This document shows, one piece after another, positions 58,941-63,909 of a stretch of 64,000 nucleotides of DNA. This DNA comes from Bacteroidetes bacterium 2013_40CM_41_45 (GTDB lineage: Bacteria > Bacteroidota > Bacteroidia > AKYH767-A > 2013-40CM-41-45). Location of the stretch: NCBI GenBank assembly GCA_002215675.1, contig NGFH01000002.1, forward strand, positions 285,887 to 349,886, written 5' to 3'. The translations under genes and the position numbers were made by a program. The notes beneath the pieces were generated by a model, which worked only from the letters and a program-made list of their open reading frames with translations, had not been told where the DNA came from and searched no databases. Every line of letters begins with the position of its first letter. Position 1 is the first letter of the stretch.

Positions 58941-59067
58941 CTTAGTTCGGAATTGCAGGTTTTTCAGCAAAGGCTTCTGCCGTAAAACTTTTATAATATT
59001 TTACCCCAATTTTTCCAACCTTTTTCGCAAAGCTGCGTCTATTATATATTAGTTAATCTAATATTCT

Positions 59068-59075
59068 TAAATTTG
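59068..59075 (+). promoter_or_regulatory. -7 box of the Omp28-like gene
   Basis: TAAATTTG fits TAnnTTTG, 35 nt before the ATG at 59111. It overlaps a reverse TTAAG half-site (TTTAAGAAT on the minus strand), a word also used upstream of the kinase gene. Confidence 0.5.
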
Positions 59076-60268: not shown

Positions 60269-60305
60269 TTAAGGATGTTTTAAGAATTGTTAAGAATCCA
60301 ATAAG
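60269..60305 (+). promoter_or_regulatory. Four-part direct repeat, candidate OmpR-type box upstream of the GEVED gene
   Basis: TTAAG begins at 60269, 60280 and 60290, with ATAAG at 60301 (spacing 11, 10, 11). The 17-mer TTTTAAGAATTGTTAAG at 60278-60294 is identical to one upstream of the kinase gene. It ends 22 nt before TTATTTTG (60328-60335), a plausible -7 box. Confidence 0.7.
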
Positions 60306-60390
60306 CATTTCATTGCTGTGGGTTAATTTATTTTGAAGAAGCAATTATTCAATATTTATTAACTCTAATCATTAAAAAAACAAACCAGCA

Positions 60391-61239
60391 ATGAAAAAAA
60401 TTACCAAACCAATTGTACTTGTGTTGATTCTTGTATGCAACAGCTTTTTGCTGCCGGCTCAATGGTGTACGGTCACCACGGCAATTCCCTATTCTACCGA
60501 CATGCCCGGCATTACACATGTCGTTATTAATACAATCGACAGGATTTCTCTTCCTATAGAAGATTATCCCAACAACAGTTATGTCAACACCGGCATGAGC
60601 ACCACCCTCAACGCAGGACAGACCTACACCATTTCAATAACGCATACGCGCGATGCAGTGATTTTTCCGACAGTACGAAATAATATCCGCGTGTGGATTG
60701 ATTACAATCATGATTATTCTTTTGACGACCCGGGCGAAACGGTAGTCAGCTTGAATTACCAAACCTATGGCACGTCCACTGCTTCATTTACAGTTCCCAT
60801 GTCTTTTACGCCGGGTATGACAAGGATGAGAGTCACGGCAAAAATGTCGGACGATGGAGGGCACACGCTGCCGACCTCCTGCGACAACCCTCCTGACCCG
60901 CTTGGTTATCATGGAGAGGTTGAGGACTATGATGTAATCCTTTCTTCGAGTGTTGGAATAAATGATTTGACATCAGCAATAAGCAATTTTGTTATTTATC
61001 CTAACCCCGCATCGACAGATTTGACGGTTGATTTCGGCCTGGCAAAAGCATCCACGATATCATTAAATATTTATGATGTTTTAGGCAAAAGAATTTATTG
61101 GGTTTCGTCATCGCACCCATCGGGGAAACACAGTCTGAAAATAAACCTTCCTGCAGTTGGTATTACTCAGAAAGGAATTTATTTTATCGATATCAATGAC
61201 GGAAAAAAATCTTCCGTAACAAGATTTGCTGTTCTTTAA
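60391..61239 (+). CDS. GEVED-domain protein with type IX sorting tail
   Basis: A 282-residue exported protein with a signal peptide (about 1-25, ending LPAQW), a GEVED domain (about 45-190; conserved INTIDRISLPIEDYPNNSYVN, VWIDYNHDYSFDDPGETV and HGEVEDYDVIL) and a type IX sorting tail (FVIYPNPASTDLTV, then GIYFIDINDG and RFAVL). GEVED is an extracellular beta-sandwich found in Bacteroidota surface proteins, often with proteases. Its upstream region contains the same four-part direct repeat as the kinase gene, so the kinase/regulator pair may control it. Confidence 0.85.
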   Translation: MKKITKPIVLVLILVCNSFLLPAQWCTVTTAIPYSTDMPGITHVVINTIDRISLPIEDYPNNSYVNTGMSTTLNAGQTYTISITHTRDAVIFPTVRNNIRVWIDYNHDYSFDDPGETVVSLNYQTYGTSTASFTVPMSFTPGMTRMRVTAKMSDDGGHTLPTSCDNPPDPLGYHGEVEDYDVILSSSVGINDLTSAISNFVIYPNPASTDLTVDFGLAKASTISLNIYDVLGKRIYWVSSSHPSGKHSLKINLPAVGITQKGIYFIDINDGKKSSVTRFAVL

Positions 61240-61251
61240 GCAGAAGAAAGA

Positions 61252-61372
61252 CGGAAATTGACAGCGTTGTATTGCCAAAGCGGGGCATCCCGCTCGCTTG
61301 TCGGGAAATCATGTTTGGTGGTTAAAGTCCATTTGTCCCGCTTTAGGCAATACTTTCAAGTAAAAATTTCCG
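61252..61372. repeat. 121-bp imperfect inverted-repeat element
   Basis: Ends CGGAAATT / AATTTCCG, and inner arms ATTGCC-AAAGCGGG / CCCGCTTTAGGCAAT, give about 36 nt of imperfect terminal inverted repeat around a loop of roughly 50 nt with CCCGCTCGC...GCGGG-like words. No reading frame fits. It is intergenic, between the GEVED gene and the response regulator. Confidence 0.65.
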
Positions 61373-61454
61373 AGAGAAAACCAGGGCGTAATGTGATTCT
61401 AGCAATAAAAAAAAGAAACTGCTAAATTGTTCTACTGGTATAATTTGGCCTTAG

Positions 61455-62165
61455 TTAGTTTTTCTGCACATAGAGCTTAAACCCGGTGCCGTAAATATTC
61501 TGTATTTCTACATTGGAGTCGTTCTTCAAAAGTTTTCTGAGACGGGTAATAAAAACATCCATGCTTTTTGCAATAAAATAATCATCGCTGTTCCATACTT
61601 TATTCATAAGGAATTGGCGATGCACCAGTTCATTTTCTTTTTCACAGAAAACTTTCAGCAACTCAGCTTCTTTCATCGAAAGTATTTTTTCTGATTTATC
61701 AGGATAAACCAGCGTACGTTTTGTGTAATGAAAAACGTAACTGCCAATATTAAAAATATCATCTTTACTTTTTGTGTGGTTAACCGCTGTTCTTTTAAGA
61801 ACCGCATTTACGCGCAGCAAAAGTTCCATAAGGCTGAATGGCTTGGTTATATAATCATCGCACCCTATTTCGAATCCTTTTATTTTATCCAATTCCATAG
61901 AGCGGGAAGTGAGAAAAATAATCGGAACATTCTCTTTTAGCTTGCGCATTTCTTTTGCCAGTGTAAATCCATCTTTATGCGGAAGCATTACATCGAGAAT
62001 ACAAAGCTGAAACGGCTGCTGGTTAAACATGCGGATACCCTGCTTTCCATCAGTGCAAGTAGAGACCAGGAATCCTCTCGACTCAAGATTTTCCCTGAGC
62101 AGGTAGCCGAGGTTATCATCGTCTTCTACAATCAGAATGTTATGCGATGGGGTTGGTGTGCTCAT
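61455..62165 (-). CDS. OmpR/PhoB-family response regulator
   Basis: A 236-residue regulator. The receiver domain (about 9-125) has acidic Asp15-Asp16-Asp17 in LIVEDDDN, phosphorylation Asp58 in CILDVMLPHKDGF, Thr86-Ser87 in IIFLTS and Lys108 in DDYITKPFSLMELLLR. The C-terminal winged helix (about 135-235) contains KILSMKEAELLKVFCEKENELVHRQFL, MDVFITRLRKLLKNDSNVEIQNIYGTGFKL. The frame is complete and typical. It lies 2 nt downstream of the histidine kinase gene, so one transcript. It is the likely binder of the direct repeats at 60269-60305 and 63713-63775 (inference). Confidence 0.95.
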   Translation of the reverse strand: MSTPTPSHNILIVEDDDNLGYLLRENLESRGFLVSTCTDGKQGIRMFNQQPFQLCILDVMLPHKDGFTLAKEMRKLKENVPIIFLTSRSMELDKIKGFEIGCDDYITKPFSLMELLLRVNAVLKRTAVNHTKSKDDIFNIGSYVFHYTKRTLVYPDKSEKILSMKEAELLKVFCEKENELVHRQFLMNKVWNSDDYFIAKSMDVFITRLRKLLKNDSNVEIQNIYGTGFKLYVQKN

Positions 62166-62167
62166 GT

Positions 62168-63700
62168 TTATTGGCTGTGTGGAAGATATACCTGGAATTC
62201 GCTGCCTGCATTTAGCTGGCTCCGTACAATGATTCTACCCTTATGTGAATCCACAATAGTTTTTACGTAGGTCAATCCCAGCCCGAATCCTTTTACGGTA
62301 TGCACATCGCTGTTGCTTGCACGGTAAAACTTTTCAAAGATTTTTTTCTGCGCTTCCTTAGGTATGCCTTCTCCGTTGTCTTTGACGCTGAACATAACGC
62401 CTTCGCGGAAATTTTCCGTTCGTATATCAAGATGCAAACCGTTGGATGAATATTTAATTGAATTGTCTATAAGATTGCAGATTATATTTATCAGGTGTGT
62501 TTCATCGGCTTCAACTATAGGTTTTGAAGCCTTAAAATCAAATTTCACCTCGGCGTTTCTTCCTTCCAGAACCGGTTCAAAGCTCGAGGCGGCTTTCTGG
62601 ATAACGTTGTGTATATCCAGTTTCTCAAATGATAAATTAATTTTTTCTTTTTCAAACCGTGCCACCTGGAGAATTTTTTCAATATTCTCTCTTAGCCGTT
62701 CTGTTTCCTGCCCGAGTATTTTATAAACTTTTGAGGCGGGTTGTTTTTCTGCTTCATGTTTTTCCGCTAATGTTTCCAAAGCAACAGAGATATTGGCAAG
62801 GGGGGTTTTAAATTCATGCGTCATATTGTTGATGAAATCATTTTTAAGCTCGGATAATTTTCGCTGCCTGAAAATAATCCGGATAAAAAGATAAAAGGAA
62901 ATAAGCAATATGGCAGTGATTATAAATGAAACAATAAGAACGGTCCTGATTCCTGCCAGCAGCATGGAAGAATAATTTTCAAAATATAAAACCAAATCGT
63001 ATGGCTGGCTGAAATACTTATTATTGGTAAGCTGCACGCGGAGAGGGGAGACGAGCAATTTATTACTCTCAGCGCCTTCATTTTTATACTCAACCTTAAG
63101 CCTGCTGCTTCTTATAAATCCGAAATGAAATTTATCGTGAATAGAATTATTACCCAGCTCCATTTTCAGAACAGAATCTATGAAGGACGTGTCGTAACGC
63201 TCCGCAATGGGAACATTATCTGAAAGTTTATCGCGATAATTTTTGAGATTCACACCTTCCGGAATTCTTCGCTCCGTTTTTGCAGCCAGCGTGTCATTGA
63301 GCAGGTAACGGAATTTAAGAACCATCTCCAGGTCAATAGGATATTGAAACTTAACACTTCCCCATCGGAATGGAAAATCACCTTCGGCATTTGCAAAGTA
63401 CATCGGCACGGTGTCCGGCACACTTGAACCGCTGGCTACAAATTTATCATTACTCCATTTTTGCCTTATCATATAAAAACCTTCATGAGGATTTATAGGA
63501 ACTTTGGAAAAAAGTTCGAAGCACATGATATTCTCGTTTGCAACATCAACAGTTTTTTTCATGGCATCCATTGATTTTGAAGCAATATTCTTTTCACTCA
63601 GTCTGTACGATGAATATGCCCAGAAAACCTGTATGGTAATAAGCGAGAGCAGCGCAACAGAGACAAGGCCTATAATAAGTTTTACTCTCTTAAATTCCAT
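62168..63700 (-). CDS. Membrane sensor histidine kinase
   Basis: A 510-residue two-pass kinase. Transmembrane helices are at about 8-30 and 250-275, with an extracytoplasmic sensor of about 220 residues between them that has no recognised fold. The cytoplasmic part has the H-box NDFINNMTHEFKTPLANI (His295), N-box IICNLIDNSIKYS, G1 VKDNGEGIPKEAQ, F-box KIFEKFYRAS and G2 GFGLGLTYVKTIV. No HAMP domain is evident, as is common in this Bacteroidota family. It is co-transcribed with the response regulator. Its upstream region (63713-63775) contains six TTAAG-type half-sites. Confidence 0.95.
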   Translation of the reverse strand: MEFKRVKLIIGLVSVALLSLITIQVFWAYSSYRLSEKNIASKSMDAMKKTVDVANENIMCFELFSKVPINPHEGFYMIRQKWSNDKFVASGSSVPDTVPMYFANAEGDFPFRWGSVKFQYPIDLEMVLKFRYLLNDTLAAKTERRIPEGVNLKNYRDKLSDNVPIAERYDTSFIDSVLKMELGNNSIHDKFHFGFIRSSRLKVEYKNEGAESNKLLVSPLRVQLTNNKYFSQPYDLVLYFENYSSMLLAGIRTVLIVSFIITAILLISFYLFIRIIFRQRKLSELKNDFINNMTHEFKTPLANISVALETLAEKHEAEKQPASKVYKILGQETERLRENIEKILQVARFEKEKINLSFEKLDIHNVIQKAASSFEPVLEGRNAEVKFDFKASKPIVEADETHLINIICNLIDNSIKYSSNGLHLDIRTENFREGVMFSVKDNGEGIPKEAQKKIFEKFYRASNSDVHTVKGFGLGLTYVKTIVDSHKGRIIVRSQLNAGSEFQVYLPHSQ

Positions 63701-63712
63701 GCATCAAATTTC

Positions 63713-63775
63713 CTTAATTATTTCTTAACTCGAAAGATTTAAGAATATTTTAAGAATTGTTAAGGATTTGATAAG
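63713..63775. promoter_or_regulatory. Complex direct/inverted repeat upstream of the kinase gene
   Basis: Four direct half-sites (TTAAG at 63739, 63750, 63760 and ATAAG at 63771; spacing 11, 10, 11) copy the layout at 60269-60305, including the shared 17-mer (63748-63764). Two reverse half-sites (CTTAA at 63713-63717 and 63724-63728, spacing 11) point towards the kinase gene. Confidence 0.7.
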
Positions 63776-63823
63776 AAAACCGCGCTAAAAAATAAAGGCG
63801 GCATCTCATGAATTCAGCCGTTG

Positions 63824-63909
63824 TACCCGGGGCGGGAATCGAACCCGCACGGACGTTTCGGTCCAAGGGATTTTAAGTCCCTCTTGTCTACCAGTTCCAA
63901 CACCCGGGC
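63824..63909 (-). tRNA. tRNA-Leu (anticodon UAA)
   Basis: The minus strand folds as a class II tRNA of 86 nt. The acceptor arm GCCCGGG pairs with CCCGGGT (one G-U pair), the anticodon stem AGGGA/TCCCT frames the loop CTTAAAA with anticodon UAA, a long variable arm is present, and the T-arm GCGGGTTCGATTCCCGC is canonical. The discriminator is A, and CCA is not encoded (CAA follows). Confidence 0.95.

Follow-up and report, generated by a model that had tools for sequence, protein, structure and literature searches.

A four-box direct-repeat array predicted to couple an RprXY-like two-component system to a type IX-secreted surface protein in a Bacteroidetes bacterium

Results

The stretch of DNA that we analysed, hereafter the window, comprises 64,000 nucleotides of Bacteroidetes bacterium 2013_40CM_41_45. 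It carries, on the plus strand, a gene (60391..61239) for a secreted protein with a GEVED domain (PF20009) and a type IX C-terminal sorting domain (Por_Secre_tail), the latter scoring 50 bits for PF18962 against a cut-off of 27 and 44.9 bits for TIGR04183 against a cut-off of 23; this gene is the predicted target of the system described below. An OmpR/PhoB-family response regulator, rightly assigned to that family by the first-pass annotation, is encoded on the minus strand (61455..62165). Its receiver (PF00072, 94.5 bits) and winged-helix domain (PF00486, Trans_reg_C, 56.7 bits) both exceed their cut-offs, and its nearest named family is RprY, at a score under the cut-off of that family. In the same minus-strand operon, 2 bp upstream of the regulator gene, lies the gene for a membrane histidine kinase (62168..63700) with HisKA and HATPase_c domains (PF00512 and PF02518, both above cut-off) and an extracytoplasmic sensor region of about 215 residues. 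The earlier remark that this region matches no known fold holds: its AlphaFold model is weak (mean pLDDT 69), and no PDB structure matched the model at an E value below 0.69, the periplasmic domain of LuxQ being a weak lead. A tRNA-Leu gene (63823-63909, minus strand) lies upstream of the kinase gene, and the window therefore has no divergent protein gene directly opposite the kinase.

OmpR/PhoB-family regulators bind direct repeats of about 10–11 bp. A four-part direct-repeat array precedes both the GEVED gene and the kinase gene. Copy A, of the cargo type (60269..60305, plus strand), reads TTAAG-N6-TTAAG-N5-TTAAG-N6-ATAAG, with TTAAG at 60269, 60280 and 60290 and ATAAG at 60301, and is a predicted site for two tandem regulator dimers. 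Copy B, of the kinase type (63739..63775, minus strand), has TTAAG at 63739, 63750 and 63760 and ATAAG at 63771, and reads CTTAT-N6-CTTAA-N5-CTTAA-N6-CTTAA in the direction towards the kinase. The first-pass annotation had described both arrays with the spacing of 11/10/11 bp, and every position was confirmed, as was the identical 17-mer TTTTAAGAATTGTTAAG common to the two, whose only occurrences in the window are those at 60278 and 63748. Both copies have ATAAG as their fourth box, a deviation that we counted against reading the arrays as operators. Chance was ruled out as the source of the arrays and their spacing: the window contains 6 TTAAG pairs 9–11 bp apart against 0.84 expected from dinucleotide shuffles, with 0/100 shuffles reaching 6, and the expectation for four-part arrays, calculated from 5-mer frequencies, is about 1.5e-5 per whole genome.

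We scanned the whole genome (a 3.38 Mb assembly, 99.5% complete, in 11 contigs) for the four-part 11/10/11 pattern, a check that the annotation had suggested, and found it at the two window sites only, even with up to three mismatches. The annotation had named a 17-mer common in unrelated intergenic DNA as grounds for giving up its proposal, and this test did not go against it. With loose spacing, the exact three-box pattern had one additional match in the genome, at a different spacing. When up to three mismatches were allowed, the three-box pattern matched 154 places in the genome against 304 in the reversed control; given this lack of excess, the genome has no background population of weaker sites. 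Scanning the genome more loosely, for four boxes of the S type, added only noise at two or three mismatches. Further targets in this genome, if there are any, are without this array.

Two individual matches elsewhere in the genome may be recorded here. About 25 bp upstream of a small gene resembling an XRE-type regulator there is a three-box array with a single mismatch (L155, C10:102641), and a gene for a secreted HYR-domain protein is preceded, at a distance of 38 bp, by a weak three-box TTAA match with 2 mismatches (L162, C3:255926).

To place the arrays in a wider context, kinase relatives were collected by protein similarity alone and their promoters then inspected (n = 27). RprXY-like kinases of the same class carry GTTAA-N6-GTTAA-N5-GTTAA-N6-GTTAA upstream of their start codons. 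At least 15 of the 16 TTAA positions were matched at 11/10/11 in 13 of the 27 kinase promoters, as against 0/1080 Markov resamplings, and 11/10/11 scored best among 343 spacing combinations tried on these promoters. A blind scan of 395 genomes of the class for four STTAA boxes at 11/10/11 returned 31 places in 30 genomes, versus 1 in the reversed control; about 23 of these 31 arrays stand directly upstream of a kinase gene.

In most relatives a single array separates the kinase–regulator operon from a divergent gene whose product is type IX-secreted (Por_Secre_tail). The sorting domain was found in 18 of 22 tested genes opposite the kinase, two of the 18 scoring under the family cut-off. Since the number of such domains in these genomes ranges from 92 to at least 150 each, a few per cent of the genes, this proportion represents a large enrichment. 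At some cargo genes (L084, L085; loci L152, L153) the array stands with no kinase or regulator within the stretch fetched around it, which is the state of the GEVED gene. A GTTAA four-box array was also seen at two loci (L095 and L096, in G172 and G305) upstream of a gene encoding a trypsin-PDZ protease of the HtrA/Deg-like type (by Pfam for L096), with an opposite, divergent gene that by eye resembles diaminopimelate epimerase; the protease and the epimerase-like gene hint at a role in envelope stress.

The position of the arrays relative to the promoters is equally regular. The Bacteroidetes -7 box has the consensus TAnnTTTG. Among the 31 arrays of relatives, 24 have a cargo-side -7 box whose start is exactly 22 bp from the edge of the array, and 24 have a kinase-side -7 box 26–28 bp from the edge; the background frequency in these flanks is about 1% at any one position. 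In the window, the predicted -7 box of the GEVED promoter, TTATTTTG (60328..60335, plus strand), lies exactly 22 bp from the edge of copy A, and that of the kinase promoter, GAAATTTG (63705..63712, minus strand), lies 26 bp from the edge of copy B. Both fit five of the six consensus positions rather than all six, a further point that we weighed against the operator reading. The kinase start is 38 bp from the end of its array, as compared with 36–43 bp (about 40 bp) in most relatives. A composite search for three boxes with a -7 box at 22 bp found the GEVED promoter as its sole match in its own genome. The cargo geometry (22 bp) thus persists in the GEVED copy and the kinase geometry (26 bp) in the copy upstream of the kinase gene, and no comparable -7 box was found on the far side of either array. 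Since each copy has one -7 box at its own distance, the window is best read as a split two-way operator, and its two arrays would derive from a two-way ancestor that was split. On the cargo side we saw no conserved -33 element separating the array from the -7 box, from which we infer that the array would serve activation. At five loci of the window's family (L009, L012, L014, L023 and L024) we observed a fifth GTTAA in the same orientation, about 20 bp past the fourth, between the array and the -7 box.

Additional half-sites had been pointed out around these promoters. Two reverse CTTAA half-sites, 11 bp apart (63713 and 63724; 63713..63728, no strand assigned), are indeed present between array B and its -7 box, but a role for them is unsupported, as they are absent from the ortholog in G370, which has a perfect array. 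The reverse half-site of the Omp28-like gene likewise overlaps that gene's -7 box (CTTAA at 59066-59070; TAAATTTG at 59068-59075). We nevertheless rejected this gene as a target, because one solitary 5-mer, here a lone CTTAA overlapping the gene's own -7 box, carries no evidential weight.

We then compared the closest relatives of the window pair. A profile of the sensor domain matched in 6 of 395 genomes of the class, the window's own included, and another profile scan for orthologs, run on genome contigs, had G004 as its only match. In the kinase-plus-regulator tree, the window, G004, G064, G370, G262, G286 and G315 form one clade (bootstrap/SH-aLRT 99/98); this group of seven stands apart from the other sampled RprXY-like pairs, in a tree built without the authentic Bacteroides RprXY. 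The G370 ortholog has a perfect four-box CTTAA array upstream of its kinase, as in the window, and the G315 ortholog has an ATTAA/TTTAA/CTTAA/CTTAA array at the same place. In both, the divergent gene encodes a Kelch-repeat type IX cargo protein, and these orthologs share an extended array core, CTTAAAAYATTCTTAA, of which G004 has a degenerate form. Several members of the clade weigh against the operator reading: in G004, the nearest ortholog, the array is degenerate, with three recognisable boxes; in G064 it lies 248 bp from the kinase ORF; and in G262 and G286 no array was found. The G004 array sits between a TonB-receptor-like gene and an S41 peptidase–kinase–regulator operon. The G064 locus (L143, C65) is of separate interest in that a TPR-repeat-like sensor region replaces the usual one while the CTTAA array is kept, and its divergent gene, for a secreted protein with PKD/SprB repeats, is interrupted by the contig end.

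The first base of the boxes follows this clade. Exact all-CTTAA arrays were found in the class scan only in G370 and G064, both of the window clade, and the remaining exact arrays are dominated by GTTAA. In the wing of the regulator, the Lys/Arg of most GTTAA-type regulators is replaced by Thr in the window clade (Tyr in G064), and in the recognition helix an Arg is replaced by Lys or Asn in six of the seven clade members. This association between box letter and putative contact residues is a correlation over one clade, not a proof of specificity. A single recognition-helix residue was rejected as the cause of the box letter, because the Arg is retained in G315, whereas the rest of the clade has Lys or Asn there. 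In G004 and in G315 a CTTAA-type system coexists with a GTTAA-type one; the four-box scans found no G-type array in the window genome.

Discussion

Two arrays that are unique in their genome, conserved in relatives, fixed in promoter geometry and marked by a clade-specific box letter can be read directly from the DNA. We regard it as highly probable that both represent a single operator belonging to the OmpR-family two-component system next to them, through which this system would activate both promoters. In this model, a signal would lead the kinase to phosphorylate the regulator, two dimers of which would bind head to tail, on a single helix face, to four 5-bp boxes at 11/10/11. The bound regulator would take the place of a -33 element and recruit RNA polymerase to the Bacteroidetes -7 box. 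One array would feed two divergent promoters in most relatives, those of the kinase–regulator operon and of the gene for the type IX-secreted cargo. The present genome would have this operator in duplicate, with one promoter left per copy: copy B would drive the kinase–regulator operon in positive autoregulation, and copy A the GEVED surface protein. Of the small regulon proposed in the first-pass annotation, the part concerning the Omp28-like gene falls away, and predicted autoregulation and GEVED control by the regulator at 61455-62165 are well supported by phylogenetic footprinting, because the spacing, both -7 distances, the clade-linked box letter and the pairing with type IX cargo are conserved.

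The sign of control is taken from geometry, and the same operator could be put to the opposite use: the bound regulator would repress, the array blocking RNA polymerase at both promoters and phosphorylation relieving or strengthening the block. The related RprY of P. gingivalis has been described as a repressor that binds its own promoter (PMC3646045; PMC6032018). The array edge, however, remains upstream of the core promoter at a near-constant distance from the -7 box, and on the cargo side the interval separating it from that box has no conserved -33 element, as would be the case if an activator took over the place of this element. We therefore consider repression rather unlikely and activation the probable outcome.

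That the adjacent regulator is the protein that would bind the arrays is suggested by the way they travel together. Boxes of OmpR-family members look alike, and the genome contains a second RprY-like pair on contig C6, which leaves some room for another OmpR-family regulator of the cell as the binding protein, its adjacency to this kinase pair being incidental. This would be surprising, given that the array follows the kinase–regulator locus through many families, that the box letter follows the clade of the window pair, and that the C6 pair has no 11/10/11 array in front of it. Even less credible is an origin in chance similarity of AT-rich intergenic DNA or in a dispersed repeat: the two sites do have a high AT content and share 5-mers frequent in such DNA, but the genome has only two copies, against an expectation of about 1.5e-5, and the array is conserved in other families with a fixed promoter geometry.

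The targets of two-component systems in Bacteroidetes are mostly uncharted, and the operator would link an orphan kinase–regulator pair to type IX-secreted surface proteins. Because it is recognisable by its sequence and promoter geometry, the targets of the whole family could be readable from genomes, from DNA alone. More tentatively, and with somewhat less than even confidence, we propose a class-wide RprXY-like family in which each system controls a dedicated type IX-secreted surface protein through a rigid two-way operator, the cargo perhaps feeding back on the state of the envelope that the kinase senses. A side clade to which the window belongs may have swapped the first base of all boxes together with DNA-contact residues of the regulator, becoming insulated from a G-type paralog that survives in G004 and G315. 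It would be a natural case of an operator letter and regulator contact residues changed jointly following a duplication, and in two genomes a single cell has the two versions.

Several described systems resemble the one proposed here. PhoB is a winged-helix regulator that binds direct repeats of 11 bp ahead of the core promoter and replaces an upstream promoter element, a likeness that extends to the window regulator and its array. Yet the window regulator is not a PhoB equivalog (161–178 bits against cut-offs of 296 and 270), and its locus has four TTAA boxes, a Bacteroidetes -7 promoter and no pst genes beside the pair. The closest named family is RprX/RprY of Bacteroides and Porphyromonas, in which, as here, the kinase adjoins the regulator; the window regulator scores 267.9 bits, and its orthologs 236–278 bits, against the cut-off of 370 of the RprY equivalog NF051850. 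Binding of RprY to its own promoter is known from P. gingivalis (PMC3646045), and our search of open-licence papers found neither an RprY binding motif nor a TTAA-repeat operator in Bacteroidetes. Two-component control tied to type IX secretion is represented in this phylum by PorX/PorY-SigP, which acts on genes of the secretion machine through an ECF sigma factor (PMC4800418), whereas the predicted target in the window is a single cargo gene, reached through a direct-repeat operator. The nearest described site is that of Staphylococcus aureus SaeR, also an OmpR-family regulator acting upstream of surface and secreted protein genes. SaeR binds GTTAA-N6-GTTAA and tolerates a change of the first G to C with about 20% activity (PMC5083920). 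The 11-bp spacing and the TTAA core are the same, and the first base is C in the window and G in its relatives. The arrays described here differ from the SaeR site in belonging to another phylum, in having four boxes at 11/10/11 instead of a separate pair or several such pairs, in their two-way promoter with type IX cargo, and in the C that marks the boxes of the window clade.
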